A DNA stretch of 43,326 nt, taken from Thermincola ferriacetica (lineage in GTDB: Bacteria; Bacillota; Thermincolia; Thermincolales; Thermincolaceae). Positions 295 through 37,032 of the stretch are shown here, in pieces. The notes beneath the pieces were generated by a model that worked only from the letters and a program-made list of their open reading frames with translations, was not told the origin of the DNA and made no database searches. Position 1 is the first letter of the stretch; every line of letters begins with the position of its first letter. A program made the translations under genes and the position numbers. The stretch is taken from assembly GCF_001263415.1 (NCBI RefSeq), contig NZ_LGTE01000024.1, positions 1 through 43,326 on the forward strand, given 5' to 3'.

Positions 295-669
295 ATGGAA
301 AGTATAGGCATAGTTAAAGTTGACGAAAACGACCCGCGCTTGGCGGAATTGATGAAAGACCTGGACGCATTGGGTGCGCAGGTCAGCAGCGGCAACAAGC
401 CTGCTGCTTCAAAGTTAGCGGACGAGATAGCTGAACGCCTGAATGTTCTGCCTGTTCTGGTCGTCCAGGCAGGGTTCAGGCAGTGTATGCTGGGCAAGCG
501 CCCGGAAGCTGCCGTATATCTTCTGGGGCTGAGCGACATGGCCAAAGCGATGTTTGAACAGCTTGCGGCTGATCCGGACTGTGGTCCTGGCGAAGCAATG
601 GGGGTCATACTGGCCCTGATGCAGGAAATTGCCCGGCAGAACAGCATTGGAAAGGTGGGTGTGGTATGA
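295..669 (+). CDS. Small conserved protein of unknown function
   Basis: Encodes about 124 residues starting MESIGIVKVDEND. An in-frame ATG at 226 exists, but it lies inside the iscB end and transposon hairpin, so 295 is preferred even though its ribosome site is weak. The protein looks helical and soluble, with an Ala/Leu-rich middle (LADEIAERLNVLPVLVVQAG) and no membrane segment. It overlaps the next gene by 4 bases (ATGA), so the two are probably translationally coupled. The insertion of the iscB element just upstream may have removed its original promoter. I do not recognise the family. Confidence 0.65.
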   Translation: MESIGIVKVDENDPRLAELMKDLDALGAQVSSGNKPAASKLADEIAERLNVLPVLVVQAGFRQCMLGKRPEAAVYLLGLSDMAKAMFEQLAADPDCGPGEAMGVILALMQEIARQNSIGKVGVV

Positions 670-1040
670 AAATTCTTGTTGCCACCACAGAAACCCAGGG
701 TCAGCGCAAAAGCGATTTTTGCTTCGTCCCGGAAGGGGAAATTGTCACGTTCGGTTTTGAATGTGACAGTGACAAAGACAATATAGACGGCGGTTGTGGT
801 TGCCGCAGGTCGATGGTTGGCATCGACTGTCTTAGGGCAACCACAACCTGCAAGGTTGCCGATGTTCGGCTAACTAAAAGACAGTATATACAGAAAATCC
901 AGGCCAGCCTGAACAAGAGCGGGTTTGGCCGGATAATCGACACGAAGAAAGAAGCAGAAGAACTGCTTCGCATTGCAAACTGCTTCCCTGTCGGGGCGGT
1001 GGTTGAAAAACGGGGCAGTGTTTTTCAGGTCAGAAAATAA
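666..1040 (+). CDS. Conserved Cys-rich hypothetical protein (DUF7715-like)
   Basis: A 124-residue protein starting MKILVATTETQGQRKSDF. It contains a compact Cys/Gly motif (DGGCGCRRSMVGID) that could bind metal or be catalytic, then a basic helical C-terminal half. The N-terminal pattern, VATxxTQGxRKxDFC followed by FGFECD and GCGCRRSM, resembles a small conserved family I associate with DUF7715; this is recalled and not verified. The gene overlaps its upstream partner by 4 bases and ends just before a strong terminator, so 295-1040 is a two-gene unit. Function unknown. Confidence 0.65.
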   Translation: MKILVATTETQGQRKSDFCFVPEGEIVTFGFECDSDKDNIDGGCGCRRSMVGIDCLRATTTCKVADVRLTKRQYIQKIQASLNKSGFGRIIDTKKEAEELLRIANCFPVGAVVEKRGSVFQVRK

Positions 1041-1047
1041 CATTTTA

Positions 1048-1080
1048 AACCCCCTCAAAGTTGTTTTGAGGGGGTTTAAA
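1048..1080 (+). terminator. Rho-independent terminator (bidirectional)
   Basis: TTTAAACCCCCTCAAA pairs with TTTGAGGGGGTTTAAA around a short loop. The A/T flanks give a U-tract on both strands. It closes the 295-1040 gene pair. Confidence 0.85.
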
Positions 1081-1094
1081 AATGCCGTTTTTTA

Positions 1095-1133
1095 ATACAA
1101 CACAACCATATAAATTGCTATAATATGTTGTAT
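1095..1133. promoter_or_regulatory. Dyad ATACAACA...TGTTGTAT, copy 1
   Basis: ATACAACA (1095-1102) and TGTTGTAT (1126-1133) are inverted with a 23-base AT-rich centre containing TATAAT. The same arms recur at 1211-1246. They could be operators or recombinase arm sites; nothing in the window shows which protein binds. Confidence 0.4.
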
Positions 1134-1210: not shown

Positions 1211-1246
1211 GCCAATACAACAAAATTTATATTATGTTGTATTGGC
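1211..1246. promoter_or_regulatory. Perfect 12-bp inverted repeat GCCAATACAACA/TGTTGTATTGGC, copy 2
   Basis: The two 12-bp arms are perfectly inverted around a 12-bp A/T-only centre. It shares ATACAACA...TGTTGTAT with 1095-1133, about 115 bases upstream. Together the two dyads fill the 354-base gene-free gap 1041-1394 along with the terminator and the recombinase-leader remnant. Confidence 0.45.
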
Positions 1247-1326: not shown

Positions 1327-1399
1327 CTTTTTTTGAATACCGTTAAACCGATTTGTGAAATGGTTTTAACGTGCGGTTTTGGGGAAGTGAAATCGTGTT
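1327..1399 (+). pseudogene. Degenerate copy of the recombinase gene start
   Basis: From TTG at 1333 the frame reads LNTVKPICEMVL and stops at TAG (1398-1400). The intact tyrosine recombinase at 5972 begins LNTVEPIRDRRK. At DNA level CCTTTTT..GAA.ACCGTT.AACCGAT is shared between 1327 and 5967. The copy lies at the left edge of the NurA-HerA-methylase block and the intact gene at its right edge, suggesting a flanking repeat left by insertion of that block. Confidence 0.45.
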
Positions 1400-2537
1400 A
1401 GATAGCCAAAATTTATCACAACTAAGAAAGCTTATGAGCAAATGTATGGAGAATGACATGGTTCTTCTTGATACACTTAGGAGAGAAATTAGTGTATTAA
1501 ATGGAGAAGTGCGTAGAATTGTTCCGAGAAATTCTACATCTATTTCCCTTGTTGGCACAGATGGAGGAAATAACAAGTTGAAATTCGATCCTTTTTTTGT
1601 TCAAGTGATAAGGGTTGTTGATTCAAGTAACAACGAATATTATATGGACGTTATTACACCTACAACTAAAGTTGAAGAACTTAACCGGAGAATTTTTGAA
1701 GATAATGAAAGCAAACTTAATTCATTGAAAAAGATGATGGAGTATCTTGGAGTTGACAATATTACGAAGCTAAGTCCAATGATAAAATATAACTCGCCGG
1801 ATAAGCCTATTAGCCCTAGTTGGGTCCAAGTTTATAGGGAACTGGTTGAATGGGCAACGCTTTTTGCGGTAGTCCGAGAGAAAGATTTTGGGACTGATAC
1901 CTTAATTCTTTTTGACGGGCTGCTAAGAAGTAAGGTTTTTGCGGGTGATTTATTTGCTAAATATAGAAGAGGCTTAGAAGAGGGCATACAGAAGCAGTTT
2001 GAACGAAATCGCAGGAGAATTTACATTGCCGGACTTGCCAAGCATAGTAAGGTACTGGAAAGATATCGTTTGGCTATGCACATTGAGAATATAATGACAG
2101 TTAATTATCCTTGTTACGTTGAAATTCCGAGAAGTATTGAAGAGAAAGCATACGTTTGGTCAGAATATGCTAGGGGCGATGATATTATTAGTGAAGGGAC
2201 GGAAGTTAATAAGTTTGTTGCTGGCAAAATGTTTTTTGTAAAGTTTGGATCTGGGAAACAAGATCCGGTATGGGCTGTAGATATTTTGTTAAGTCAGGCG
2301 AGAGAAGCTCAGCAGATTATTGGGTGTTTGTTAGCTGATGCAGTAAACGGCTTTCCTATTCCGTTCTATCCCTTGAGTCTTCAGAAGGCCCATGAAAACG
2401 CTGCATTAATTGATTTTGATATGAATATTATTCAAGACGAGATATTGAACGCTTTAAGGATATCACTTGGGCCTGATTCCGATAAAATTGATATTTTTAG
2501 GTTTGTAGACACAGATCCATCGATTAACAGATATTGA
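1395..2537 (+). CDS. nurA: NurA-family 5'-3' nuclease
   Basis: About 380 residues. NurA nucleases work with the HerA hexameric translocase to resect DNA ends; in bacteria the pair is often part of phage defence. Visible NurA-like elements are the first acidic strand ending in GTDGG, a second LILFDGLL, a conserved KHSK, AVDIL, and a C-terminal ALIDFDMNIIQDE. GTG at 1395 is chosen because GGGGAAG lies 7-8 bases upstream; a GTG at 1371 has no such site. HerA follows after 15 bases. Codon use is AT-rich compared with 20-43 kb, consistent with horizontal acquisition. Confidence 0.75.
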   Translation: MLDSQNLSQLRKLMSKCMENDMVLLDTLRREISVLNGEVRRIVPRNSTSISLVGTDGGNNKLKFDPFFVQVIRVVDSSNNEYYMDVITPTTKVEELNRRIFEDNESKLNSLKKMMEYLGVDNITKLSPMIKYNSPDKPISPSWVQVYRELVEWATLFAVVREKDFGTDTLILFDGLLRSKVFAGDLFAKYRRGLEEGIQKQFERNRRRIYIAGLAKHSKVLERYRLAMHIENIMTVNYPCYVEIPRSIEEKAYVWSEYARGDDIISEGTEVNKFVAGKMFFVKFGSGKQDPVWAVDILLSQAREAQQIIGCLLADAVNGFPIPFYPLSLQKAHENAALIDFDMNIIQDEILNALRISLGPDSDKIDIFRFVDTDPSINRY

Positions 2538-2552
2538 GAGGGATGAAGCACA

Positions 2553-4664
2553 ATGCCAATTGACAATCTTTTTCCGAGAGAACAAATTGTAGGTGTTTTT
2601 AGAGGGTTTACCGAAGGTGGCATGGAATTTCATGCAGATTTGGTTTTACCATACAGAAACGATTTTCAGAATATACCAATGCATGGACAGTTTTTGCTTG
2701 TACAGCTTGAATCTCCAGAAGAGGCAGTTTTAGGTCGTATAACTTCGGTTTCTTCCGAAGGCAAGCTTTCTTCAGGTGTTGGTGAGGATTATAACCTTAG
2801 AGCTATAAGGGATAATAGGCCTATTCCTGAAGATTTAAGGGAGCAATATTTGAAGTATAAAATTAACATCCGTGTTCTTGGAAGTTTAAGGTTAGTGAAT
2901 GGGACAATTGTTTTTGTGCCTTCTCACAGACGAATTCCACATGTGGGTAGTCCCGTTGCTTTTCCGTCTAATGAGGTACTTAAAGAGATTGCTGGACATA
3001 ATGAGACGGGTGCTGAACTCGGTTTTTTTGCACTCGGAGAATATATATATGCGGGTGATAATACGCAATTCAGGGATAGTAAAAAAGATTGGATGCAAGT
3101 CAAACACCCTGAAATATCAGTTAAATTTCCTGTTGAAAATTTAGTTTCTCGTAGGTCATTTATATTTGCTCGCGCTGGTTTTGGAAAGTCAAACCTCAAC
3201 AAACTTTTATTCAGCAGACTCTATAGAAGTACACCAACAGTTGAAAAAAGAGGCGGCAGAAAAGTACCGGTAGGAACTATTATCTTTGATCGAGATGGCG
3301 AGTATTTTTGGCCAGATGATAAAGGCCGTCCGGGACTTTGCGATGTACCAGAACTGAGGGATAACATTGTAGTGTTTACATCCAGACAGGCTCCAAGTAA
3401 ATTTTATGGTTCATTTGTAGCCGGAGGAATACGGCTTGACATACGAAGATTTAGACCTTCAGATATTATTTCTATTGCCTTATCTCAAGAAAAACAAGAC
3501 CAACAAAATGTCAGAAAACTTAAAGGACTCAATCAAGACAATTGGGAAAGACTTGTTAACCTTATTTACAGACAAAAAAATGAAGCTGATTTGAGTGAAA
3601 TAAAGAAATTTCTCAATCTTGACAACCAACAGGACGCGGAAGCGCTTGCTGCAAGGGCAAACATGACAACAATTGTAAATGCCCTGCACGACCCGAGTAG
3701 CCAGTTTGTGGATATGCTGTTTATGGCTCTGGCAGATGGGAAACTTTGTATTGTAGATATTTCACAGCTCAGGGGCGAGCAGGCTTTGATTCTTAGCGGT
3801 ATTATACTGAGAAGGATTTTTGACAGGAACCAAGAAGAGTTTACATCTGCCGAACCGAAAACGATACCAACCATAGCAGTTATTGAGGAGGCACAATCAG
3901 TTTTAGTGCCCGGAGTTTCTGCTACTGAGCCGTATATTGCATGGGTGAAGGAAGGTCGTAAATATGACTTGGGAGCATTACTTATAACACAGCAGCCAGG
4001 AAGCATTCCTTCAGACATACTCAGCCAGGGAGATAATTGGTTTATATTTCACTTACTTTCAGCAGTAGACCTGCAGAATGTAAAAAAAGCCAATGCTCAC
4101 TTTAGTGATGATATTTTGAGTGCATTGTTAAACGAACCTATTGTTGGGCAAGGTGTATTTTGGAGTTCTGTTAGTGGGAAGCCGTATCCAATATCTGTAA
4201 GGGTTATGTCTTTTGAATCCGAAGTAACCACAATTGATAAAAATTACGATAAAGATGAAATTGAAACTTATGCAAATCATCTAAAGAAAAAATTTGCGAA
4301 AGCTTTACAGGAAAGTATGGAATCTTCAAATAGAGTTACCTATGAGGATAGTGAAGATGTTGAAGTGGTGATTGACAATCAAGAAATTTATAAAAATGCT
4401 GTAATCAATAATCTTAAAATTAAAACAGAGTTTATTGAAAAAGTTAGAAAAGGTATTCCATGGCGCGCAGTTGTGTCAGAGATTGAGAATGAGTTACCAG
4501 ATATTATTGACAATAAGAATAATTTTGCCTATAACATGGTTTCAAGATGCCTTGATGAAATATTTGGTAAAGAAAACTTTGGTTGGCATACATATAGGAA
4601 CGATAAAAATATTTTATATGTTAAGGCTTTAGAAAACTTAGGTGATGTTAATGGGGATAACTAA
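2553..4664 (+). CDS. herA: HerA-like hexameric DNA translocase/helicase
   Basis: A 703-residue ATPase. An N-terminal beta-barrel-like region (about 1-150) precedes a RecA-like core with Walker A RAGFGKSN (Lys212), DRDGEYFWPD after the next strand, and Walker B VIEEAQSVL near 445. A QQPGSIPSDIL segment fits the arginine-finger/sensor region of the HerA/FtsK clan. The C-terminal 150 residues are charged and may contact partners. It sits directly behind nurA and overlaps the methylase gene, so the three genes form one operon. The usual HerA-NurA partnership is end resection; the linked methylase suggests self/non-self discrimination. Confidence 0.85.
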   Translation: MPIDNLFPREQIVGVFRGFTEGGMEFHADLVLPYRNDFQNIPMHGQFLLVQLESPEEAVLGRITSVSSEGKLSSGVGEDYNLRAIRDNRPIPEDLREQYLKYKINIRVLGSLRLVNGTIVFVPSHRRIPHVGSPVAFPSNEVLKEIAGHNETGAELGFFALGEYIYAGDNTQFRDSKKDWMQVKHPEISVKFPVENLVSRRSFIFARAGFGKSNLNKLLFSRLYRSTPTVEKRGGRKVPVGTIIFDRDGEYFWPDDKGRPGLCDVPELRDNIVVFTSRQAPSKFYGSFVAGGIRLDIRRFRPSDIISIALSQEKQDQQNVRKLKGLNQDNWERLVNLIYRQKNEADLSEIKKFLNLDNQQDAEALAARANMTTIVNALHDPSSQFVDMLFMALADGKLCIVDISQLRGEQALILSGIILRRIFDRNQEEFTSAEPKTIPTIAVIEEAQSVLVPGVSATEPYIAWVKEGRKYDLGALLITQQPGSIPSDILSQGDNWFIFHLLSAVDLQNVKKANAHFSDDILSALLNEPIVGQGVFWSSVSGKPYPISVRVMSFESEVTTIDKNYDKDEIETYANHLKKKFAKALQESMESSNRVTYEDSEDVEVVIDNQEIYKNAVINNLKIKTEFIEKVRKGIPWRAVVSEIENELPDIIDNKNNFAYNMVSRCLDEIFGKENFGWHTYRNDKNILYVKALENLGDVNGDN

Positions 4665-5760
4665 TCTTAATGCAATATGCCCTTACTTTACTATGTTCCC
4701 TTTAGATTTCCCGTTGAGCATTTTGGAACAATATGGTGAAGGGGCTCAATGGGTATTAGACCCTTTTTGTGGCAGAGGAACAACAAATTTTGCTGCCAGA
4801 TTACATAATTGTCCTTCAATAGGAATTGACAGCAGCCCTGTTGCAGTTGCTTTGACAGAGGCAAAGCTTGTAAATACAACCGTAACTCAAATAATGCGGA
4901 CAGCAGATAAAATTTTATCTAAGGATATAATTCCCGATATCCCTCAAGGTGAGTTTTGGGAACATGCTTTTGATTATGAAGTGCTCTCTAACATATGCAA
5001 AATACGAGAAGCGTTAGTGAAAAGCTGTGATTCTGAAGCAAGAATTGCTCTGCGGGCAATAATGCTTGGTGCGTTACATGGCCCGCAGTCTATTAATAGT
5101 CCATCATATTTTTCAAATCAATGTCCGCGTACTTATGCACCAAAACCGGCTTACGCCGTTAGGTTTTGGAAAGAAAGAAACTTTAAGCCTCTAAAAGTGG
5201 ATATATTAAGTATCATAAAAAAAAGAGCCGAGAGGTATTATGGGCAGGAGTTGCCTAATGGTTATGGGTTTGTGATTAAAGGTGATAGTACGACTGGTCG
5301 GGTTTTTGCGAGAGTGAAAAGAGTTTTAGATAAACATAATGCCAAAGTATCAATGATTATTACTTCCCCGCCTTATTACGGCATGAAGACATATATTGCC
5401 GACCAGTGGATTAGAAACTGGTTTTTAGGTGGGCCAGATGTTGTTGATTATTCTACTAACGGGCAGATCAAACACTCCGGTAAAGAAGTGTTTATAAAAG
5501 AACTAAGAAAAGTTTGGAATAATACAGCAGAAATAAGTAGTCGAAATGCTATTTTGGCTATTAGGTTTGGTAGCATCAATGATCGCAAAGTTAATCCTGA
5601 GGACGTGATTAAAGATTCATTAAGTGGAACATTATGGGAAATTAAAGAGATTAGGTCTGCAGGGTTTGCTAAAAAAGGCCGACGGCAAGCTGATACTTTT
5701 GCGGAAAAAAATAAAGAACAGATTGAAGAAATTGACATTATAGCTGTTAAACGTGGATGA
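4651..5760 (+). CDS. DNA methyltransferase (N4-cytosine/N6-adenine type)
   Basis: About 369 residues. SAM-binding motif I is DPFCGRGTTNFAA (near residue 37) and the catalytic motif IV is SPPYYG (near 239). The order motif I before IV and the SPPY form point to an N4-cytosine or beta/gamma-type amino-methylase. ATG 4651 is preferred over GTG 4642 because TTAGGTGA lies just upstream. It overlaps the herA end by 14 bases, indicating coupling. In this operon it probably marks host DNA so that the NurA-HerA pair attacks only unmodified DNA. Target sequence cannot be read from the protein. Confidence 0.8.
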   Translation: MGITNLNAICPYFTMFPLDFPLSILEQYGEGAQWVLDPFCGRGTTNFAARLHNCPSIGIDSSPVAVALTEAKLVNTTVTQIMRTADKILSKDIIPDIPQGEFWEHAFDYEVLSNICKIREALVKSCDSEARIALRAIMLGALHGPQSINSPSYFSNQCPRTYAPKPAYAVRFWKERNFKPLKVDILSIIKKRAERYYGQELPNGYGFVIKGDSTTGRVFARVKRVLDKHNAKVSMIITSPPYYGMKTYIADQWIRNWFLGGPDVVDYSTNGQIKHSGKEVFIKELRKVWNNTAEISSRNAILAIRFGSINDRKVNPEDVIKDSLSGTLWEIKEIRSAGFAKKGRRQADTFAEKNKEQIEEIDIIAVKRG

Positions 5761-5770
5761 GTCGTTGTAC

Positions 5771-5813
5771 CACGTCTAAAGACGTTGAGTTTCCGGCTAC
5801 TGCGATCGGAAAC
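5771..5813. repeat. Two adjacent hairpins in a 211-base gap
   Basis: ACGTC-TAAA-GACGT is followed by GTTTCCG (5789-5795) pairing with CGGAAAC (5807-5813). No U-tract follows directly, so this is not a clear terminator. The compact hairpin plus short flanks resembles an IS200/IS605 end relic. The rest of the gap to 5971 shows no gene. Confidence 0.35.
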
Positions 5814-5971
5814 CAATGTTTCAAGAAGTAAAAATCACTTGTTTTTGTTATATGTAGGAAATAGTTCCAATTTTGAGTGGTAGCTAAAATGCTAACATGC
5901 AATATATAACGTTTTTGGAGTTTGTGTAAATTTAGTCACTAAAAGCAGGTTTCAAGAAAGGGGGACCCTTT

Positions 5972-6541
5972 TTGAACACCGTTGAACCGATCCGCGACAG
6001 GCGGAAAATCGAAACGATGAAGAAACTGCTCAAAGCAACTAGCAAAAGGGACTACTTGCTTTTTGTCCTGGGCATAAACACCGGCCTGCGCATATCCGAC
6101 CTTTTAAAGCTCAAAGTGGAGGACGTGGCCAGCGGCAACGGCAAAAGGATAAAGGACTGCGTGTATATCCGCGAGAAAAAGACGGACAAGCCGAAAAAAT
6201 TTGGCTTAAATAAATCCTGCCAGGATGCGATCAGGGAATACCTGGCCGAATCCGGCCTTAAGCCCGGACAGTATTTGTTCAAGAGCCGGAAGGGCGAACA
6301 CCCTATTGACCGTATTCAGGCATACAGAGTAATAAACAACGCTGCCAGGCAGGTAGGGCTGGAGGATCATATCGGTACGCATACCCTGCGGAAAACCTTC
6401 GGTTACCATGCCAGGAAGCAGGGGACGTCTATAGAGCTTCTTCAGAAGGTGTTTAACCATTCTGCACCGTCGATTACCATGCGGTATATCGGGATTACGC
6501 AGGATGAGATTGATGAGGTTTACAGTTTTGTGAATTTGTAG
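5972..6541 (+). CDS. Short tyrosine recombinase (XerC/D-like catalytic domain)
   Basis: A 189-residue protein with the full catalytic set: Arg40 (TGLRISDLL), HTLR (His137, Arg140), His163 (FNHSAP) and Tyr172 (MRYIGI). The usual N-terminal SAM-like arm-binding domain is absent, so this is a catalytic-core recombinase of the kind found beside defence islands and integrative elements. TTG 5972 is favoured by AAAGGGGG about 10 bases upstream. Its leader has a degenerate duplicate at 1327. It lacks the extra IntI-specific helix expected of an integron integrase, so it probably does not drive the attC-like cassettes at 11-19 kb. Confidence 0.85.
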   Translation: MNTVEPIRDRRKIETMKKLLKATSKRDYLLFVLGINTGLRISDLLKLKVEDVASGNGKRIKDCVYIREKKTDKPKKFGLNKSCQDAIREYLAESGLKPGQYLFKSRKGEHPIDRIQAYRVINNAARQVGLEDHIGTHTLRKTFGYHARKQGTSIELLQKVFNHSAPSITMRYIGITQDEIDEVYSFVNL

Positions 6542-9624: not shown

Positions 9625-9807
9625 TTGTTTCCATTTCTACTGACTCGGAAAGAAAAAAAGAAGCAGCGATCTATTTTGCTCATAGATGATGTTATTACAA
9701 CAGGAAGCACACTACAAGAAGTTGGGAAACAGCTTAAAATATGTGGCGCAGATAAAATATTTGGTATAGCACTTGCCCATACTGAGGCTTCTTTTATTTA
9801 CGGGTAA
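9625..9807 (+). pseudogene. ComF-like phosphoribosyltransferase C-terminal fragment
   Basis: Sixty residues holding the PRPP-binding motif LLIDDVITTGSTL followed by a GADKIFGIALAHT strand, the end of a ComF/type I phosphoribosyltransferase fold. The N-terminal half and zinc-binding part are missing and no clear ribosome site precedes the TTG. It is best read as the broken tail of a larger gene, probably left by recombination beside the restriction genes. Confidence 0.6.
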
Positions 9808-9873
9808 TTATGGCGTTGCATTGTCGAACAATGTCGCAATTTTTGTCAAGGAAAAAGCTGGAACATGTCGAAT

Positions 9874-9897
9874 ACCTCCGTTAAGGAGGTGTTTTTT
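9874..9897 (+). promoter_or_regulatory. Terminator-like hairpin that contains the ribosome site of the next gene
   Basis: ACCTCC (9874-9879) pairs with GGAGGT (9885-9890) around GTTAA and is followed by a GTTTTTTG tract. The second arm is the only Shine-Dalgarno sequence for the 9902 gene. The element could act as terminator/attenuator and as a translational lock. Confidence 0.55.
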
Positions 9898-9901
9898 GTT
9901 T

Positions 9902-11149
9902 ATGGCCATGCGAAAAAAACAGGGTCCAGGATGCCTTGCCCTGATTTTCTTCTTTTTAATCATAGGGGCCATCGGATCATGTCTTGGCGGCGGTAACCAA
10001 ACGGAGAATAAAATAACGACAGCGCCTGCAACTCAAATAACTCAAAGCGTTTACCAAAGCGCGTACAACACAACCGAATCGCCAAAAGACGCCACCTCAG
10101 ATGTAAACAACACCGGAACCGGCCAGCAAACACCTGTTGTTAATACCGGTGGTAAACTCAAGGTGCATTTTATCAATGTCGGCCAGGGTGACAGCATATT
10201 GATACAGACGCCTGGCGGGAAAAACCTTTTAATAGACGCCGGGCCGAATTCCGCCGAGTCAACTGTTGAGAGCTATCTGCAGGCCCAGGGTGTGAAAAAA
10301 CTGGACGTGGTTGTAGGCACTCACCCCCACGAAGACCATATCGGCGGACTTGATGGAGTGATCCGATCCTTTGACATAGGCAAAATCTATCTGCCGAAAG
10401 CCTCTCATACGACCGAGGCTTACGCCAGTTTACTCCAGTCTATTAAAAATAAGGGGTTGAAAGTCAGCACGGCAGCCGCAGGCGTTGTGCTGGATTTAGG
10501 TCCCGGGATTGAGGCGAAATTTCTGGCCCCCAACGGGACAGGCTACCGGGACTTAAACGATTACAGCGCAGTAATAGAACTGAAGTATGGCAAAAATTCT
10601 TTCCTTTTTGAAGGCGACGCGGAAACTGTTTCGGAGCATCAAATGCTTGCAGCCGGTTACAACCTGGATGTGGATGTTCTGAAGGTCGGTCACCACGGAA
10701 GCCGGTCCTCCAGTTCATCATCTTTTCTCCGCGCCGTCACCCCGAAATATGCCGTTATCAGCGTGGGGGCCGGCAACTCATACGGCCACCCGGCATACGA
10801 GACTGTGGCTGCCCTGGCGAATGCCGGCGCAAAAATATACCGGACAGACGAAGCCGGGACTATTGTTGCGGTGTCCGATGGTACTAACTTTACCATTGAC
10901 AAGAACGCAAGCGCCATTCAACCGCGCGCACCAAACAGCGGTTCTGGTAGCGGTTACGTCGGAGGTGCAGGCCCGGGTCCCCGGCCCGAACCGCAGAGCG
11001 GTGACTATTATATAGGAAACCGCAACACTCATAAATTTCATCTGCCCTCGTGTTCATACTTACCCAACCCGGAAAACCAGGTTATTTTTAAAACCAGGGA
11101 AGCGGCCATCAGTGCCGGTTATGTGCCGTGCAAAAAATGCTATCCGTAG
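9902..11149 (+). CDS. Exported ComEC-like metallo-beta-lactamase protein with C-terminal Ada-like zinc domain
   Basis: About 415 residues. An N-terminal hydrophobic stretch (CLALIFFFLIIGAIGSCLGG) looks like a lipoprotein or uncleaved signal, then a Thr/Gln-rich linker, then the MBL domain of the ComEC/Rec2 C-terminal type: FINVGQGDSILIQ, LLIDAG, GTHPHEDHIGGLDG, GDAE and VGHHGS. A Gly/Pro linker joins a final 45-residue segment with FHLPSCSYLP and YVPCKKCYP, resembling the Ada metal-binding domain. Such stand-alone proteins are thought to degrade external DNA or phosphodiesters. ATG 9902 is chosen; TTG 9896 is also possible given the ribosome site at 9883-9890. DUF3006 follows. Confidence 0.8.
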   Translation: MAMRKKQGPGCLALIFFFLIIGAIGSCLGGGNQTENKITTAPATQITQSVYQSAYNTTESPKDATSDVNNTGTGQQTPVVNTGGKLKVHFINVGQGDSILIQTPGGKNLLIDAGPNSAESTVESYLQAQGVKKLDVVVGTHPHEDHIGGLDGVIRSFDIGKIYLPKASHTTEAYASLLQSIKNKGLKVSTAAAGVVLDLGPGIEAKFLAPNGTGYRDLNDYSAVIELKYGKNSFLFEGDAETVSEHQMLAAGYNLDVDVLKVGHHGSRSSSSSSFLRAVTPKYAVISVGAGNSYGHPAYETVAALANAGAKIYRTDEAGTIVAVSDGTNFTIDKNASAIQPRAPNSGSGSGYVGGAGPGPRPEPQSGDYYIGNRNTHKFHLPSCSYLPNPENQVIFKTREAAISAGYVPCKKCYP

Positions 11150-14555: not shown

Positions 14556-15326
14556 ATGAACAATGAGGAAGCTAGGAAAATCGACCTGTTAAGCGTGGTT
14601 AGTTTATATTTAGAACCTCAAGTAAATAACAATATTTTAGGATCAGCAACGGGGTTCGTAGTTCAATATGGACAGATGCCTTATCTCATTACAAACTGGC
14701 ATGTGGTATCCGGGAGAAATCCTAATTCGGGTAAATTATTATCACCTGAAACTGGTGCAACTCCAGATAGTATTAGGATATTTCATCACACTGCCAAATT
14801 AGGTGAGTGGATAATAACATCTGAAGCGTTATATGATTCAGACGGTAATCCTAGATGGATTGAACATAAACTTGGCAGAAAAATCGATGTAGTAGCACTA
14901 CCTCTTAGCGAACTTGACAAAGTAAAACTGTACCCACTTGATTTGAGATTAGCCGAAAGTAAAATTATCCCTCAGCCTGGCATGCCAGCCTCTATCATTG
15001 GATACCCTTTTGGATTGTCTAATTTTCTGTGGCCTATTTGGAAAACTGGGCATATTGCTTCAGACCCAGATGTGGATTTTGATGGATGCCCCATTTTTTT
15101 AATAGATGCTACAACACGTAGCGGAATGTCTGGGTCACCTGTTGTATTACGACTTACCCATACATATTATTCAAATAACGTTCAAGGTTTAGTTTCAGAG
15201 GGAGTTACAACTAAATTTCTTGGTGTTTATTCTGGAAGAATTCACAATGAAGCAGAGATAGGCAAGGTATGGAAACCAAAAGTCATATCAGAAATCTTGA
15301 CCGGAGCGAAATATCGTCTAACATAA
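14556..15326 (+). CDS. Trypsin-like serine protease (cassette gene)
   Basis: A 256-residue trypsin-fold protease. The triad is visible: His49 in LITNWHVVSG, Asp111 in KIDVVALPL and Ser192 in GMSGSP. There is no signal peptide or PDZ domain, so it probably acts in the cytoplasm. ATG 14556 has AGAAAGGAAAA upstream. The gene fills the space between two attC-like modules and its stop lies inside the next one, as expected for a mobile cassette. Proteases of this kind appear as effectors in several phage-defence systems, but no partner is visible here, so the role is open. Confidence 0.8.
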   Translation: MNNEEARKIDLLSVVSLYLEPQVNNNILGSATGFVVQYGQMPYLITNWHVVSGRNPNSGKLLSPETGATPDSIRIFHHTAKLGEWIITSEALYDSDGNPRWIEHKLGRKIDVVALPLSELDKVKLYPLDLRLAESKIIPQPGMPASIIGYPFGLSNFLWPIWKTGHIASDPDVDFDGCPIFLIDATTRSGMSGSPVVLRLTHTYYSNNVQGLVSEGVTTKFLGVYSGRIHNEAEIGKVWKPKVISEILTGAKYRLT

Positions 15327-15370
15327 AGCCGTGTTTCCGCATTTGAGCATGAAAAAACACTGGCAAAGGG
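15316..15370 (+). repeat. Left half of an attC-like site split by an insertion
   Basis: CGTCTAACATAAAGCCGTG and the following bases up to CACTGGCAAAG match the left part of the intact module at 19018-19075 almost base for base. Homology stops near 15370; the matching right part resumes at 16378, beyond the Mrr gene. Confidence 0.6.
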
Positions 15371-16377: not shown

Positions 16378-16500
16378 CAGGACACTGACCCTGCCGGTGT
16401 TAAACCAATATTCAATATGCCCAATTACAGAAACATGTGTTGTACGAAACCGTGTTCGCAAAGCGTACAGCAGCGCGGCGTGAGGGTGGTTAGGCGAAAT
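16378..16500 (+). repeat. Right half of the split attC-like site
   Basis: From GACACTGACCCTG to GGTTAGGCGAAAT this stretch aligns along its whole length with 19074-19194, the right part of the intact module. The right edge is followed about 50 bases later by the next cassette gene. Confidence 0.6.
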
Positions 16501-18980: not shown

Positions 18981-19015
18981 TCTTTCTGTGTATCTGAAAC
19001 TTGAGCATGAGCCAT

Positions 19016-19194
19016 GACATCGCCTAACATAAAGCCGTGTTTCCGCATTTGACCATGCAAAACACCGGCAAGCACTGACCCTGTTGTCGTTTAACCATTA
19101 CTCAACATGCTAAATTGCGGCAACACGTGTTGGACGAAGCCGCATTCGCGAAGCATACAGCGGCGCGGCATGGTGATGGTTAGGTGAAATGTGA
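19016..19194 (+). repeat. Intact attC-like cassette site
   Basis: Begins ATCGCCTAACATAAAGCC and ends GGTTAGGTGAAAT. Internal inverted pairs include CGTGTTTCCGCA with TGCGGCAACACG, giving the long imperfect hairpin expected of attC. At about 175 bases it is slightly longer than typical. It is the reference copy for the split site at 15316/16378. Confidence 0.6.
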
Positions 19195-23789: not shown

Positions 23790-24132
23790 GTCAACCACCC
23801 CGGACTGAAGTCCGGGGCTTGCCTTGGCGGGGGCGAGGGCAACAGGTTGACTAGATTGAGCCATGTGTAATATAGGGCTACACAGGCGGGGCTAGAAGAA
23901 CCTCCCGGGTGCAAGTCCCAGCCCGGGGAAATTCGGCAGAACCGCTTAATGCCACGGGGAAAACCCCTAAGCCTTGCCTGTATTGTCGAGGGACACTAAA
24001 CCGGTTTGACCGTTCCGGGCTGAATACCAGCACAAAAACGGTCAGTCTTACAAAAAAAGAGGAAAGAGGAAAGAAATGAGGGAAAGGGCAGCTTCCTCCC
24101 CGGAATGAATTCCGGGGTTTCCGCGAGACGCG
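23790..24132 (+). mobile_element. IscB-less omegaRNA/HEARO-like element, copy 1
   Basis: The left end has GTCAACC (23790-23796) closing with GGTTGAC (23845-23851) around a CCCCGGACTGAAGTCCGGGG hairpin. The stretch to 24059 is about 95% identical by eye to 34227-34495. A ribosome-site-like AGAGGAAAG and an ATG at 24076 start a 10-codon frame that runs straight into a right-end hairpin (24098-24117, CCCCGGAATGAATTCCGGGG). This looks like an IS200/IS605-type element whose iscB has been deleted internally, keeping guide-RNA scaffold and ends. It fills the otherwise gene-free gap 23660-24159. HEARO identity is inferred from context, not from a covariance search. Confidence 0.6.
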
Positions 24133-31995: not shown

Positions 31996-32012
31996 AAAAA
32001 AAGGGGGTGGTC

Positions 32013-33293
32013 ATGTTGCAGGTGACCAAAGCTGTGCGCTTTCAGATTATCAAGCCTTTAAATTTTTCGTGGGATGAGTTTGGCAGGATACTGAACGACC
32101 TGTCATATCACACAACTCTAATGTGCAACGCAGCGGTCCAGATGTACTGGGAGCACAATGTCATGCGGAACCGGTACAAAGCCGAGCACGGCAGGTACCC
32201 GCAGGACAAAGAGATATACGGCCAGAGCTTCCGGAACGTGGTATACCACCGGCTGCGGGAGATGTACCCGCTGATGGCATCTTCCAACGTCAGCCAGACA
32301 AACCAGTTTGCCTTGAAACGATGGCAGACAGACTTGCGTGAGGTCATGCGCCTGCAGAAGTCTGTACCCTCCTTCCGCCTGGGGACTCCTGTTCAGGTAG
32401 CTAACCAGAACTATAGTTTGTATATCGCGAAAGGCGAACCGCCGGAATATTGCGCGGAAATCACGCTGTTGGGAAAGGATGCCGCCTGTCGCCGGTTCAC
32501 TGTTCTGCTCGATGCTGGTGACGCGCCGAAAAAGGCTGTATTCCGGCGCATCGTGGAAGGAAAGTATAAGCAGGGAGTTATGCAGATCATCAAACATCCC
32601 AGAAAAAAGAAATGGTTCTGCATAGTCTCATACACAATAACCAAAGACCCTGCTCCCGGTTTGGACCAGGAACGTGTCATGGGTGTGAACCTTGCCACCG
32701 GCGAGGCGGTATACTGGGCTTTTTCCTTTTCGCCGAAACGGGGAAGCATCCCCGCCGGCGAGATCGAGGCCGCGGAGAAAAAGATTCGGGCCATCACTGC
32801 CCGGCGCAGAGAGATGCAGCGGACTGCAGGCGTGACCGGCCACGGCAGGAAACGCAGGCTCAAGGCCACCAGGGTATTGGCCGGGAAAACTGCAAACATC
32901 CGCGATGCCATCAACCACAAATACAGCAGGCGGATAGTCCGGATCGCCGCTGCCAACCGGTGCGGCAAAATAAGGCTGGCCGACATGTCCGCGCTGGGGA
33001 TGTCAGGCGCGCTTAAAGCATGGCCCTGGTCCGACCTGGTGCAGAAAATAGGGTATAAGGCCGCAGAACAGGGCATTGACGTAGAAATAGTAGAAAAGCC
33101 CGGAGACCGGGCCAAAGCGTGGCACACCTGTTCCGAGTGCGGGTATTCCGCCCCGGAAAACGTGGGAGACAACACCGAATTCCTGGCCTGCAAGGAGTGC
33201 GGGGCCAGAATAAGCCTGGAGTATAACGCCGCGCTGAACATAGCGGTATTGGCCCGGGACAGCATCCCGGAACAGCAGACATCGGCAAGCTGA
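32013..33293 (+). CDS. cas12f: Nuclease-dead Cas12f-like (type V-F/V-U) effector
   Basis: A 426-residue protein. The C-terminal half follows Cas12f order: RuvC-I, a helical RRREMQR..GHGRKRRLK region, RuvC-II, a WPWSDLVQKIGYKA helix, a zinc ribbon (HTCSECG...LACKECG) and RuvC-III (EYNAALNIA). All three catalytic positions are changed: RuvC-I reads GVNLA with Asn226 for Asp, RuvC-II reads RLADM with Ala323 for Glu, and RuvC-III has Glu403 for Asp. The DNA-cutting site is thus predicted dead, while RNA- and DNA-binding parts are kept. ATG 32013 has AAGGGGG 5 bases upstream. A tracrRNA-like RNA and an array follow immediately. A TnpB-derived repressor (TldR) is the alternative family label. Confidence 0.82.
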   Translation: MLQVTKAVRFQIIKPLNFSWDEFGRILNDLSYHTTLMCNAAVQMYWEHNVMRNRYKAEHGRYPQDKEIYGQSFRNVVYHRLREMYPLMASSNVSQTNQFALKRWQTDLREVMRLQKSVPSFRLGTPVQVANQNYSLYIAKGEPPEYCAEITLLGKDAACRRFTVLLDAGDAPKKAVFRRIVEGKYKQGVMQIIKHPRKKKWFCIVSYTITKDPAPGLDQERVMGVNLATGEAVYWAFSFSPKRGSIPAGEIEAAEKKIRAITARRREMQRTAGVTGHGRKRRLKATRVLAGKTANIRDAINHKYSRRIVRIAAANRCGKIRLADMSALGMSGALKAWPWSDLVQKIGYKAAEQGIDVEIVEKPGDRAKAWHTCSECGYSAPENVGDNTEFLACKECGARISLEYNAALNIAVLARDSIPEQQTSAS

Positions 33294-33300
33294 TGTTTTC

Positions 33301-33555
33301 TTTCGGGCGATTCGGCGTCCGAGGGTGAGAAGTGCCGGCGGGACTTCGTGCAGGCCCGGTAACGCTCACCAAGCCTCCGCGGAAGCGGGAAACCTCCGGC
33401 CTGGACTCCCTGGTAAGGGGAAGGCGGGGCCGGACAGCCCGACAAGCACATAACGTGTCGTCGAAGTCCCGGCGTTTTGGCGCTATTGGGGATCGACGAC
33501 AAAAAACAAGCCGGAAACAGCAGAAAACCGCATAGGACCGGGTGTTCACAAACGG
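33301..33555 (+). ncRNA. tracrRNA-like RNA of the Cas12f-like locus, copy 1
   Basis: This starts 7 bases after the effector stop and runs to the first repeat. Conserved stems include GGTGAG/CTCACC and GTCGTCGA (33457-33464) with TCGACGAC (33493-33500). The anti-repeat GCCGGAAAC at 33510-33518 is the exact complement of the first nine bases of the repeat, GTTTCCGGC, and CAGCCC at 33434-33439 can pair with GGGCTG near the repeat end. The whole unit is duplicated at 34869-35126. Position between effector and array is the usual tracrRNA place in type V-F. Confidence 0.78.
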
Positions 33556-33790
33556 GTTTCCGGCCTGACTATGCAGGGCTGGAACCAAACAGCTAAAGTG
33601 CTCCAATTTCCAACCGGGGCACGGGTTTCCGGCCTAACTATACAGGGCTGGAACCCCTATCCCTGCAGCGTGGGTGCTTCTCCGGAAGGTAATCGTTTCC
33701 GGCCTAACTATACAGGGCTGGAACTAAACCCGCAGACCCGAACAGGCCCATTGCTGGCCAGTTTCCGGCCTGGCTGTGCAGGGCTGGAAA
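33556..33790 (+). CRISPR. CRISPR array: four 30-bp repeats, three spacers
   Basis: Repeats are at 33556-33585, 33625-33654, 33695-33724 and 33761-33790. Each starts GTTTCCGGCC and ends GGGCTGGAA(C), with CTGACTATGCA or CTAACTATACA in the middle; the last repeat is degenerate (TGGCTGTGCA, final base A), as usual at an array's distal end. Spacers are 39, 40 and 36 bases and unrelated to each other. The repeat ends are partly self-complementary. No adaptation genes (cas1, cas2) are present in the window. Confidence 0.88.
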
Positions 33791-33806: not shown

Positions 33807-34244
33807 ATTAAAACACTGCGAAACTTAATCAAAAGCGAGCGCGGTTCTGCAGGCGTGCTGGTACTGGGGCTGGGCCTGCTGGTAATTATGATCATGCTGG
33901 TCAGCTACAGCCATTCCGTATCCCAGGCCATAGCCGCAAGGAGCGCTTTTTTAAAAGCCCTTACCGCCGGGGCGGAAACAGCCGCGGCCAGGATCGACCT
34001 GACGGCGGCGGAAAGCAGCGGCAGCGTAACGCTGGCTGCCGATGCGGTGCAGGCGGCCAGGGAAGTGGTTATGTTAAACCTGCCGCCGAACCTGCGGCCA
34101 ATGGTGCAGATTACCGGTGTCACCCTGAACCGGCGCGCCGTAACTGTAACGGGCACACTGAACATGAGCATAAAAACCTTTTTCGGCGACAAGCCCGTTC
34201 TGTTCAGCGGCAGCGGTTCGGCCAGCGTCAACCACCCCGACTGA
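33807..34244 (+). CDS. TadE/TadG-like pseudopilin with apparent ATT start
   Basis: About 145 residues. Reading from ATT 33807 gives MKTLRNLIKSERGSAGVLVL, with the same basic segment, SERGSA site and hydrophobic helix as the TadE-like protein at 31561, and AGGAGGT lies 9 bases upstream. No ATG, GTG or TTG occurs before residue 17, inside the helix region, so a rare ATT start is the best reading. The ribosome site directly abuts the last CRISPR repeat. The C-terminus runs into the left end of an omegaRNA-like element (final residues VNHPD), which has probably replaced the native end. Confidence 0.65.
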   Translation: MKTLRNLIKSERGSAGVLVLGLGLLVIMIMLVSYSHSVSQAIAARSAFLKALTAGAETAAARIDLTAAESSGSVTLAADAVQAAREVVMLNLPPNLRPMVQITGVTLNRRAVTVTGTLNMSIKTFFGDKPVLFSGSGSASVNHPD

Positions 34245-34495
34245 AGTCCGGGGCTTGCCTTGGCGGGGGTGAGGGTAACAGGTTGACTAGACTGAGCCCT
34301 GTGTAATATAGGGCTACACAGGCGGGGCTAGAAGAACCACCCGGGTGCCGGTCCCAGCCCGGGGAAATTCGGCAGAACCGCTTAATGCCACGGGGGAAAC
34401 CCCTAAGCCCTGCCTGTATTGTCGAGGGACACTAAACCGGTTTGACCGTTCCGGGCTGAATACCAGCACAAAAACGGTCAGTCTTACAAAAAAAG
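34227..34495 (+). ncRNA. OmegaRNA/HEARO-like RNA, copy 2
   Basis: Aligns with 23790-24059 over about 269 bases with roughly a dozen differences and one missing base in the left hairpin. The closing stem GTCAACC/GGTTGAC and the segments CAGCCCGGGG, AACCGCTTAATGCCACGGG, GTCGAGGGACAC and GAATACCAGCAC are all kept. No iscB follows; instead the RNA ends at AAAAAAAGGGGGT, which is the ribosome site of the gene at 34507. Confidence 0.6.
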
Positions 34496-34506
34496 GGGGT
34501 GTGAAA

Positions 34507-34868: not shown

Positions 34869-35126
34869 TTTCGGGCGATTCGGCGTCCGAGGGTGAGAAG
34901 TGCCGGCGGGACTTCGTGCAGGCCCGGTAACGCTCACCAAGCCTCCGCAGAAAGCGGGAAACCTCCGGTCTGGACTCCCTGGGAAGCAGGGAAGGCGGGG
35001 CCGGACAGCCCGACAAGCACATAACGTGTCGTCGAAGTCCCGGCGTTTTAACGCTATTGGGGATCGACGACAAAAAGCAAGCCGGAAACAGCAGAAAACC
35101 GCATAAGACCGGGTGTTCACAGACGG
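34869..35126 (+). ncRNA. tracrRNA-like RNA, copy 2 (no adjacent effector)
   Basis: Near-identical to 33301-33555 from TTTCGGGCGATTCGG onward, with a few substitutions and small indels mainly in loops. The anti-repeat GCCGGAAAC is at 35081-35089. It follows the secreted-protein gene by about 20 bases and leads straight into a two-repeat mini-array. With no effector gene here, it would have to act with the protein encoded at 32013. Confidence 0.75.
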
Positions 35127-35202
35127 GTTTCCGGCCTAACTATACAGGGCTGGAACATGGGTTTGTTGCAAAATTTCCGGCCTGACTATGCAGGGCTGGA
35201 AC
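35127..35202 (+). CRISPR. Mini-array: two repeats around a 16-base spacer
   Basis: Repeat one is 35127-35156 and repeat two 35173-35202, the latter beginning ATTTCC instead of GTTTCC. The spacer 35157-35172 (ATGGGTTTGTTGCAAA) is 16 bases, less than half those in the main array. The sequence after the second repeat runs into the leader of the next gene. Confidence 0.75.
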
Positions 35203-35213
35203 AGGGGCAAAAC

Positions 35214-35732
35214 ATGCAGTACGCAAACAGGACGGCTGCAGAAGAGGAAAGAAGGGAGGGAAAGGGCAGCTTCCTCCCCGGAATGAATTCCGGTGAGGAA
35301 GCTGCCCGGTTTTCTATGAGGAAATGGTTGGTGCTTAAAAATTTTTTGGTTTTATTAGTTGTATCGGGAATTATGGTTAAGGGATATGCTTACTTATGGC
35401 CAGGGATTGTAAAAATGTACCATCATAGCCAGCCGGAAGTGTTTTGGATAAAGTTGAGGCAAGTTTTTGTCTGGGCTATGATAATGGACTTGTCAGTAGC
35501 TATAGTTGTAATGTTTATGCTTAATATCGTTCGAGAAACATCTTGGACTAAAAAGCAAACTGCTACTGTTATAATTGGTTCGTTTATAGCTCCATTTGTT
35601 CAGGTGGGTGCGATAGGTTTTGCAGCATCAGATACTTCTGCGCAAGTTTTATTGATTGTTTTTGTGTTGGGGCTTTTTATCATCGATTTTTTAAAGAATG
35701 GAGGAGCGCGAGGGGGCAGTAATTCCCCTTAA
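35214..35732 (+). CDS. Small polytopic membrane protein
   Basis: Up to 172 residues. From about residue 35 it is AT-rich and hydrophobic with four membrane segments (NFLVLLVVSGIMVKG; FVWAMIMDLSVAIVVMFML; VIIGSFIAPFVQVGAIGF; VLLIVFVLGLFIIDF). Start is uncertain: ATG 35214 follows AGGGG but leads through a transposon-like hairpin; ATG 35316 starts MRKWLVLKNF right before the first helix and has its ribosome site (GAAGGGAGGG) on the far side of that hairpin. The second start looks more natural. Base composition differs from the GC-rich flanks. Family not recognised. Confidence 0.55.
   Translation: MQYANRTAAEEERREGKGSFLPGMNSGEEAARFSMRKWLVLKNFLVLLVVSGIMVKGYAYLWPGIVKMYHHSQPEVFWIKLRQVFVWAMIMDLSVAIVVMFMLNIVRETSWTKKQTATVIIGSFIAPFVQVGAIGFAASDTSAQVLLIVFVLGLFIIDFLKNGGARGGSNSP
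35251..35315 (+). repeat. IS200/IS605-like right-end hairpin, solo
   Basis: GGGCAGCTTCCTC pairs with GAGGAAGCTGCCC (outer arms 35264-35307) around an inner CCGGAAT/ATTCCGG. Its left part, GAGGGAAAGGGCAGCTTCCTCC, is identical to 24078-24099 in the copy-1 element. A GAAGGGAGGG ribosome site lies before and TTTTCT-ATG after the hairpin. Confidence 0.5.
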
Positions 35733-35752
35733 TTCATTGAGGGGATACACGG

Positions 35753-35782
35753 ACCCCCTCGTTTTTCTGAAAAAAGGGGGTG
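35753..35782. mobile_element. Left-end hairpin of the TnpB element
   Basis: ACCCCCT pairs with AGGGGGT around a T/A-rich centre just before tnpB. The second arm also supplies the tnpB ribosome site. The preceding GGGGATACACGG segment probably belongs to the same end. Confidence 0.5.
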
Positions 35783-35790
35783 ACCAGATA

Positions 35791-37032
35791 TTGTTTCTAA
35801 CGGTGAAGGCACAGGTACATGCCGATAGAGAAACCGAAGCCGTTCTGAAAGACGCGATGTTTTGTGCCACCAAAGTTTACAACGGCCTGCTGTGGCATCT
35901 GCGGGAAGGATCGAAAGAGACCGGCAAGGTAAACCTGAGTTGGTCGAACATCAACCGAATAATCAAAGAACTTCCCCAGGCGAAAGGCTACTATTCCCTG
36001 TCCGTGCGGATGACCTGTCTCGAAGTGATGGAGGCGTACAGGTCCTTTTTCGCCTTGAAGAAAAACGGACGTGTTAAGCACAACGCTCCCGGCTTCCGGC
36101 GAAAAACCGCATTGTCACCGCTAAAATACGTCCAAAGCGGGTTTAAAGTAGTCGGTGACCGGGTAACCGTAAGCCTGGGCACATCCCGCCCGGACGGCGT
36201 GCGTCGGGTTTCCTTTCGCGTTTCCCGCCGATCCGGGATAAGCCTAAGTAACCTGCGCGAACTTTCCATCATCTACGATAAGCTAACCGGGCGGCTGGAA
36301 GCCCGTCTGGTGGTGGAAGTTCAGTTATGCGAAAATGCCGGTACCGGCAGGGCGGCAGTGGACCTGGGCGAGACAGTGCTGTTGGCGGCGGCATTTGACG
36401 ACGGCGGGTCTATTCTCTATTCCGGCAGACTGATCAAGTCAATCCGGCGGTATTGGCAGAAAGTGCGTGCGAAAGTCAAACCCCCGTCCAAAGAACAGCC
36501 GCGCATGTCCCGGCATTACCGCCAGATTGCCCGCAAGGAGCGCCGGCAGGTAGAACACCTGCTGCATATAGTCTCCAAGCACTTTGTGGAAGAGTGTGTG
36601 ATGCGCGGGGTGGGCGAGATCGTATTCGGCGACCTGACCGGCAGGGTGGAAGGCAGGAGGTTTGGCCGGATGAACCAGCGGCTGCACGCATGGGCGTTCC
36701 ACAAACTGACAGACATGGTTGTGTACAAAGCGGCGCTGGTCGGGATCGCGGTGCGGAAGCACGACGAAAACGGCACGTCTATAACCTGCCACGCCTGCGG
36801 TGTAGAAAAACCGTCGAACCGGAAAAGCCGCGGCTTGTACCTGTGCAGGTGCGGCTGGACGGCGCACGCCGACATCAATGCAGCCCTAAATATCTACGAG
36901 AGGGCGTACAACGTATCTCCCGTCAAGGGGAGTAGTGGCCTGGTGGCGAGGCCCGTGGTCTTGTCGTTCCGGATGGATCGGCATACGGTCCACGAACCGA
37001 AGCGCAGGATAACCCTGCGCCCATCCGCTTAA
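35791..37032 (+). CDS. tnpB: TnpB RNA-guided nuclease (relocated RuvC-II type)
   Basis: A 413-residue protein with intact RuvC residues: Asp191 in AAVDLGETV, Asp361 in HADINAALNI, and a zinc ribbon (CHACG...CRCG). The RuvC-II strand reads IVFGDLTG, with Gly280 where canonical TnpBs have Glu, and a Glu287 follows in GRVEG. This matches the known TnpB group with a shifted RuvC-II glutamate, so the enzyme is probably active. TTG 35791 follows AAAAAGGGGGTGACC. No tnpA transposase is present; the element would need one in trans. Transposon ends flank it at 35753 and 37033. Confidence 0.85.
   Translation: MFLTVKAQVHADRETEAVLKDAMFCATKVYNGLLWHLREGSKETGKVNLSWSNINRIIKELPQAKGYYSLSVRMTCLEVMEAYRSFFALKKNGRVKHNAPGFRRKTALSPLKYVQSGFKVVGDRVTVSLGTSRPDGVRRVSFRVSRRSGISLSNLRELSIIYDKLTGRLEARLVVEVQLCENAGTGRAAVDLGETVLLAAAFDDGGSILYSGRLIKSIRRYWQKVRAKVKPPSKEQPRMSRHYRQIARKERRQVEHLLHIVSKHFVEECVMRGVGEIVFGDLTGRVEGRRFGRMNQRLHAWAFHKLTDMVVYKAALVGIAVRKHDENGTSITCHACGVEKPSNRKSRGLYLCRCGWTAHADINAALNIYERAYNVSPVKGSSGLVARPVVLSFRMDRHTVHEPKRRITLRPSA

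Follow-up and report, generated by a model that had tools for sequence, protein, structure and literature searches.

A repeated gene start on the two sides of a NurA-HerA-methylase block may mark insertion of the block between the control region and the coding sequence of a small tyrosine recombinase gene

Why does the start of a tyrosine recombinase gene occur twice in this DNA, once at the head of the gene itself and once on the far side of the three-gene block that comes before it? The locus lies in the window, by which we mean the whole stretch of DNA that was analysed, namely contig C24 in full (43,326 bases), which is part of the 3.18-Mb draft genome of Thermincola ferriacetica. The explanation that we prefer, and to which we give slightly less than an even chance, is that the block was inserted between the control and recombination-site region of a resident recombinase gene and its coding sequence, and that the start of the gene was duplicated in the process. 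The coordinates of the features are given in Table 1.

Table 1. Features at the left end of the window, with positions, strand and the evidence for each
Feature	Positions	Strand	Evidence or remarks
DUF7715 left-flank gene	666..1040	+	Pfam PF24831 E 1.5e-39; GC3 0.53
Terminator-like hairpin after the DUF7715 gene	1043..1081	.	17-nt perfect inverted repeat; terminator-like site called on the minus strand only
Long-spaced palindrome ATACAACA-N23-TGTTGTAT, candidate promoter/operator	1095..1133	.	TATAAT inside
Dif-like core ATACAACAAAA-TTTATA-TTATGTTGTAT, candidate recombination site	1215..1242	.	arms 10/11 complementary; spacing 12 as in 5 relatives
Left, decayed copy of the recombinase gene start, reading LNTVKPICEM	1330..1362	+	DNA alignment
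NurA-like nuclease	1395..2537	+	TdpB profile match E 1.1e-7; model resembles TdpB and NurA 2ygk
HerA-type ATPase/translocase	2553..4664	+	Pfam DUF87 E 4.8e-21; TdpA E 8.9e-23
DNA N4/N6 methyltransferase	4642..5760	+	Pfam N6_N4_Mtase E 1.4e-11
Non-coding right flank of the block	5761..5968	.	one imperfect hairpin at 5788; family-type palindrome absent
Right, intact copy, the recombinase gene start	5969..6001	+	DNA alignment
Tyrosine recombinase, 189 aa, catalytic domain only, plasmid resolvase-like	5972..6541	+	Pfam Phage_integrase 16-174, E 1.7e-25

A preliminary description of this DNA had reported that the recombinase start, LNTVEPI, has a counterpart, LNTVKPI, and this duplicate is real; it is read from the TTG at 1333, 4639 bases upstream of the TTG at 5972. 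It had put the length of the repeated flanks at 26 bases, and here the repeat was recovered upon alignment but only 23 of those bases are clear. This core (1330-1352 and 5969-5991) is identical at 21 of 23 positions, and a 33-base zone in which the first 10 codons of the recombinase are repeated is identical at 26 of 33; outside this zone the identity at the 4639 offset drops, and the longest identical run between the two copies is 8 bases. At all seven differences the intact gene has G or C and the left copy has A or T. The left copy reads PICE, which is found in none of the 49 relatives of the recombinase, as against PIRD or PIKD in 38 of them. When the window was resampled 200 times with a first-order Markov model, no second match to the 23-mer exceeded 18/23, compared to 21/23 in the window, and within the 3.8 to 20.6 kb fetched for each of the 49 relatives none matched its own start a second time at better than 17/23. 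Among 1000 random 23-mers taken from the first 22 kb, 6 had a second copy at 21/23 or better, all of them in an unrelated attC-like repeat at 15.3 and 19.0 kb. Permissive gapped alignment of longer flanks gave no signal, with 289 and 279 of 500 resampled pairs reaching the observed scores. With up to 3 mismatches allowed, a combined motif was found only at these two sites in the genome, which indicates uniqueness and not significance because the pattern was built from both copies. A third start-like sequence at 1134-1154, matching the left copy at 16 of 21 positions, was set aside as too weak for use. In appearance the left copy is what is left of a decayed recombinase gene start and not a recombination site. 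The other suggestion made earlier, of a recombinase site that overlaps the start of the gene, is not upheld, since no second start was seen in the stretch fetched for any of the 49 relatives and the candidate site seen in relatives is a separate palindrome upstream.

The block itself (1395-5760) encodes a NurA-like nuclease, HerA and a DNA methylase. For the product of the first gene the Pfam NurA model gave E 0.0088, which is below its curated cut-off, and the TdpB match in Table 1 was obtained with a profile of this protein and 8 homologues. When its predicted structure (mean pLDDT 82.5) was compared with solved folds, TdpB was the best match (E 9.7e-12, TM 0.61) and archaeal NurA was matched at E 8.7e-7. 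The best PDB sequence matches were also TdpB for this protein and TdpA for HerA (PDB 8wet/8wfd), so that a NurA fold is encoded beside HerA as in a HerA-NurA (TdpAB-like) pair. In TdpAB the phosphorothioation partner is TdpC; the pair in the window differs from TdpAB in being accompanied by a DNA methylase as the third gene. None of the 9 proteins, the window NurA-like protein and its 8 homologues, was matched by PADLOC models. The presumed role of the block is in DNA defence.

When nine HerA loci (L090-L098) were compared, the trio was found in six, NurA and HerA with no match to the window methylase in two, and a partial HerA match only in one. DNA homology to the nearest trio, L091, whose HerA is 81% identical, is confined to 1442-5751. 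At E 1e-8 the short recombinase was not matched near the nine loci in the 14.6 to 20 kb fetched, except at L094, where there is a tyrosine recombinase that is 23% identical to that of the window. Among the seven trio loci, that of the window included, a flanking direct repeat above the resamplings was found in the window only (score 17 versus at most 11). The idea that the block is a unit with terminal repeats was rejected because none in the 6 other trio loci exceeds resampling, and that of integron cassettes was rejected as well because both a scan for attC-like ends and a search for the attC-like repeat were negative at the block ends. Directly upstream of one of the NurA-HerA pairs with no match to the window methylase lies a 393-aa gene of a different kind (L097:12471-13652), which suggests that HerA-NurA pairs swap partner modules.

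As for the setting, a VirB4-type ATPase and a protein with a DnaG-type zinc finger are encoded on the 43-kb contig, and the element carrying the recombinase is probably conjugative. Low-GC cargo dominates from about 1.1 to 20 kb of the window, with a stretch of higher GC at 10-11 kb. The GC3 of the recombinase gene is 0.64, compared to 0.28-0.32 in the block and 0.27-0.29 in the two restriction genes that come next on the right of the recombinase gene, and it is 0.73 for VirB4, 0.69 for the ORF adjoining VirB4 and 0.73 for the primase-like gene. Thus, the recombinase gene is closer in GC3 to the backbone than to its immediate neighbours. Low GC is an imperfect marker of cargo because the gene at 9773-11149 has a GC3 of 0.52.

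The window contains other repeats. The attC-like repeat is about 165 bases long (GCCTAAC...GTTAGGT) and occurs at 15313-15366, 16383-16500 and 19011-19190, and also on contigs C37 (L131:504-6816), C8 (L130), C13, C49 and C44. It has 14 matches in the genome and none in the plasmid collection, with ORFs between the copies and a regular alternation on C37, and from its sequence it is a candidate integron-like cassette array. No integron integrase above the family cut-off was found in the genome; a partial integrase match on C13 (93 bits over 73 aa) carries little weight, as the same search gives matches in 14 of 14 control genomes, and the folding of one copy gave a z of only -1.4. There are also long direct repeats, 23799-24062 with 34235-34498 and 33301-33585 with 34869-35156, which are 96-99% identical in their aligned pieces and lie near TnpB-like genes at 32007-33293 and 35698-37032.

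In the recombinase the motifs GLRISDL, HTLRKT and HSAPSITMRYIG, which we take to be the conserved R, H-x-x-R and Y motifs, are all present, as expected of a tyrosine-recombinase catalytic domain. Of the 398 phylum genomes searched, 32 contain relatives at E 1e-45 or better, its own genome counted. At E 1e-5, 2625 of 72,556 plasmid records were matched, all at less than 60% identity and with distant recombinases included in this number; the 20 plasmid matches listed are 51-58% identical and all from Firmicutes. The carriers include a complete Natranaerobius plasmid of 8.7 kb and a Caldicellulosiruptor plasmid of 16 kb. Since the best plasmid matches lie on Firmicutes plasmids, the enzyme is, as judged from sequence, of a resident plasmid type rather than an integrase dedicated to the block. 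Contig C5 carries a second copy, 50% identical. Two NCBIfam 'tyrosine-type DNA invertase' models were matched far below their cut-offs. The tyrosine invertases of the FimB/FimE type are short enzymes that consist of the catalytic domain only, and the window enzyme resembles them in this form; it differs from them in that no inverted core pair is present in the window, although some of its relatives do have inverted repeats flanking the gene. In the pdif modules of Acinetobacter plasmids cargo lies beside Xer-type sites, which is similar to what is seen here, but there two such sites bracket the cargo whereas the block in the window has one core, and the next best full-length match to it is 19/28. 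A plasmid-encoded tyrosine recombinase has also been proposed for multimer resolution in pBAS2, and no canonical XerC/XerD sites were identified for this XerD (PMC5779722). The catalytic tyrosine of pBAS2 XerD is at 328, whereas the window enzyme has 189 aa in all and only the catalytic domain, and unlike pBAS2 the window has a dif-like palindrome that can be named (PMC5779722).

Both palindromes of the window lie to the left of the block, have perfect 8-base arms and are found once each in the genome. The dif-like core is 118 bp ahead of the left copy, within the range of 62-239 bp seen in the relatives, and 4757 bp ahead of the intact gene, and no family-type palindrome was found within 300-320 bp upstream of the intact start at 5972. 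Thus, the core is not close to the recombinase gene in the window; only 13 of the 48 relatives have one nearby, and hence such closeness is not strictly defining. Upstream of some relatives the palindrome has the form AnnnnACA-N11/12-TGTnnnnT, mostly with ATnnnACA. When the arms were tested without any motif in the upstream regions of 48 relatives and of the window gene, inverted repeats of dif geometry were found in 13 of these 49 regions, the window gene not being among the 13, compared to 1.35 expected and 4 downstream; nine of the 13 are of the AnnnnACA form and those of L051, L058, L066 and L075 resemble other hairpins. In the stricter motif test the core was present within 320 bp in 13 of the 48 relatives, and there were 10 further sites in the 770 kb searched, where 2.7 were expected in all; one of these 10 is the window core and 6 are inverted partners of near-gene cores. 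Within 320 bp upstream in the 49 relatives the half-sites are spaced by 11 bases at 8 loci, by 12 at 5, by 22 at 3 and by 24 at 1, and at none by any other spacing from 4 to 30, the resampling expectation being at most 0.13 loci per spacing. At L103, one of the three loci with spacing 22, the first arm is shared with its 11-spaced pair. The 22- or 24-spaced pair is found upstream in 4 of the 49 relatives and encloses TATAAT in L012, L043 and L049, and it may be the operator of the promoter in these relatives. In relatives with both palindromes, for instance L048 and L049, the core is followed by the promoter palindrome and then by the gene, whereas in the window the long-spaced palindrome precedes the core. 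At L045 a core (L045:7264-7291) and the recombinase gene downstream of it are 2.58 kb apart, and the interval holds a 585-aa ORF that has no match in Pfam or PHROGs; this is a weak hint of a core that has been displaced or serves another gene, and the repeated start is absent there. The recombinase probably acts on the core at 1215-1242 as its candidate site. In a limited survey of the literature, which covered titles and the openings of abstracts, no description of a dif-like core or of self-inverting members of this recombinase family was found.

An inverted repeat of 24-53 bp is present on both sides of the recombinase gene in 8 of the 49 relatives (L043, L070, L072, L073, L075, L077, L078 and L079), among them L043, which at 64% identity is the closest relative found, and in most of the eight it contains the core site. 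In L070, L072, L077 and L078 the two cores have centres that are exact reverse complements of each other, and in L079 they are one base off. This arrangement suggests that a gene flanked by inverted cores is inverted by its own enzyme and is a candidate self-inverting cassette. The flanks of two orthologues that are 85% identical do not align, and the contig of L075 begins close to the upstream repeat. At L010 an inverted core pair lies upstream of the recombinase, at -333 and about -55, and is a candidate promoter inversion switch.

The preferred reading of the locus can be spelled out as follows. The resident gene would encode a small Xer/resolvase-like recombinase of the probable conjugative element, with its own control palindrome at 1095-1133, and its task on the dif-like core would most likely be the resolution of multimers. 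The NurA-HerA-methylase block, in which HerA-NurA would be a restricting motor and nuclease and the methylase a marker of self, would then have come between this control and recombination region and the coding sequence, and a stretch of 33 bp or more that includes the start codon would have become duplicated in this event. On the right this stretch still serves as the beginning of the intact gene; on the left, freed from selection, it would have decayed towards A/T. The duplication would have arisen near the gene start, either by illegitimate recombination or by recombination between plasmids, and not through the recombinase. Entry of the block into the 5' end of a recombinase gene was among the proposals of the preliminary description, and the GC3 contrast, the left palindrome, the direction of decay and the PICE reading of the left copy support it in outline. 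What counts against the preferred reading is that it comes from a single contig with no second example, that the two palindromes stand in the opposite order to those of L048 and L049, that strict cores lie near the gene in a minority of the relatives, that low GC marks cargo imperfectly and that a 33-bp duplication fits no transposition mechanism known to us. The lack of an empty site counts against it as well: none was found through the left-flank proteins in the 398 genomes (with the DUF7715 family), in viral contigs or in plasmids (with DUF7715 and the preceding ORF), and in these sampled genomes, viral contigs and plasmids the only relative of the left-flank proteins is on one Euzebya plasmid.

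The left copy need not derive from the recombinase gene of the window, because the starts of the 49 relatives match the intact start at up to 24/33 (L064) and 19/23 (L077). It could instead be the stump of a second, related recombinase gene, if two elements had fused or had formed a tandem pair and the block, together with deletions, had replaced the body of the first gene. We regard this as rather unlikely, even though the left copy stands behind a family-type core at the normal distance, just as a full gene would, and the perfect 8-base arms of the left palindromes look as if they had been kept for a gene of their own. In their match to the intact start, the starts of other members come almost up to the left copy, and therefore the two-gene alternative gains weight and the preferred reading loses some; still, at 26/33 the left copy is closer than any of the 49. 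Moreover, when 50 recombinase queries were run against 1001-1460 and 5701-5972, the best match outside the copy was 17 residues long at E 0.018 and no clear recombinase body was seen, and the intact gene is without a palindrome of its own, though a second full unit should have one. We prefer a duplicate of the window gene's own start, and the evidence between the two is thin.

That the block is bracketed by direct repeats with a recombinase gene adjoining them would also be expected if the repeats were a pair of attachment sites at which some recombinase integrates and excises the block at the gene start, thereby restoring the gene. A site-specific integrative element has identical att repeats and an internal integrase, and neither is found here: the repeats are imperfect, with no more than 8 identical bases in a row, and there is no integrase gene between them. 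Such repeats are moreover absent from all 49 recombinase relatives and from the 6 other trio loci, and the relatives have a separate candidate site, so that we consider this improbable. Slightly less probable again is that an unrelated repressor accounts for the left palindromes and that the left copy, lying before nurA, resembles a gene start by chance or as a leader peptide. The left frame does stop at a TAG (1399-1401) that overlaps the beginning of nurA (GTG at 1395), as could be the case for a leader peptide, but a match as good as this one was reached in none of the 200 resamplings, and the 12-base spacing is among the few found before members of the recombinase family.

Regarding the family as a whole, we tentatively propose that the small catalytic-domain-only tyrosine recombinases of Firmicutes mobile elements share a dif-like core of 27-28 bp and a promoter palindrome that uses the half-sites of this core, that a group with a TVEPI-type N-terminus and the closest relative found of the window enzyme flip their own gene between two inverted cores, and that in the window the operator may now drive the defence genes. 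With the preferred reading, a puzzling repeat becomes a scar with a testable history, and a candidate recombination site is named for a small recombinase family with relatives in 32 of the 398 sampled phylum genomes, as well as on numerous plasmids of Firmicutes. The reading further points to a way in which a restriction-like block may enter the control region of a maintenance gene and leave the gene itself intact.
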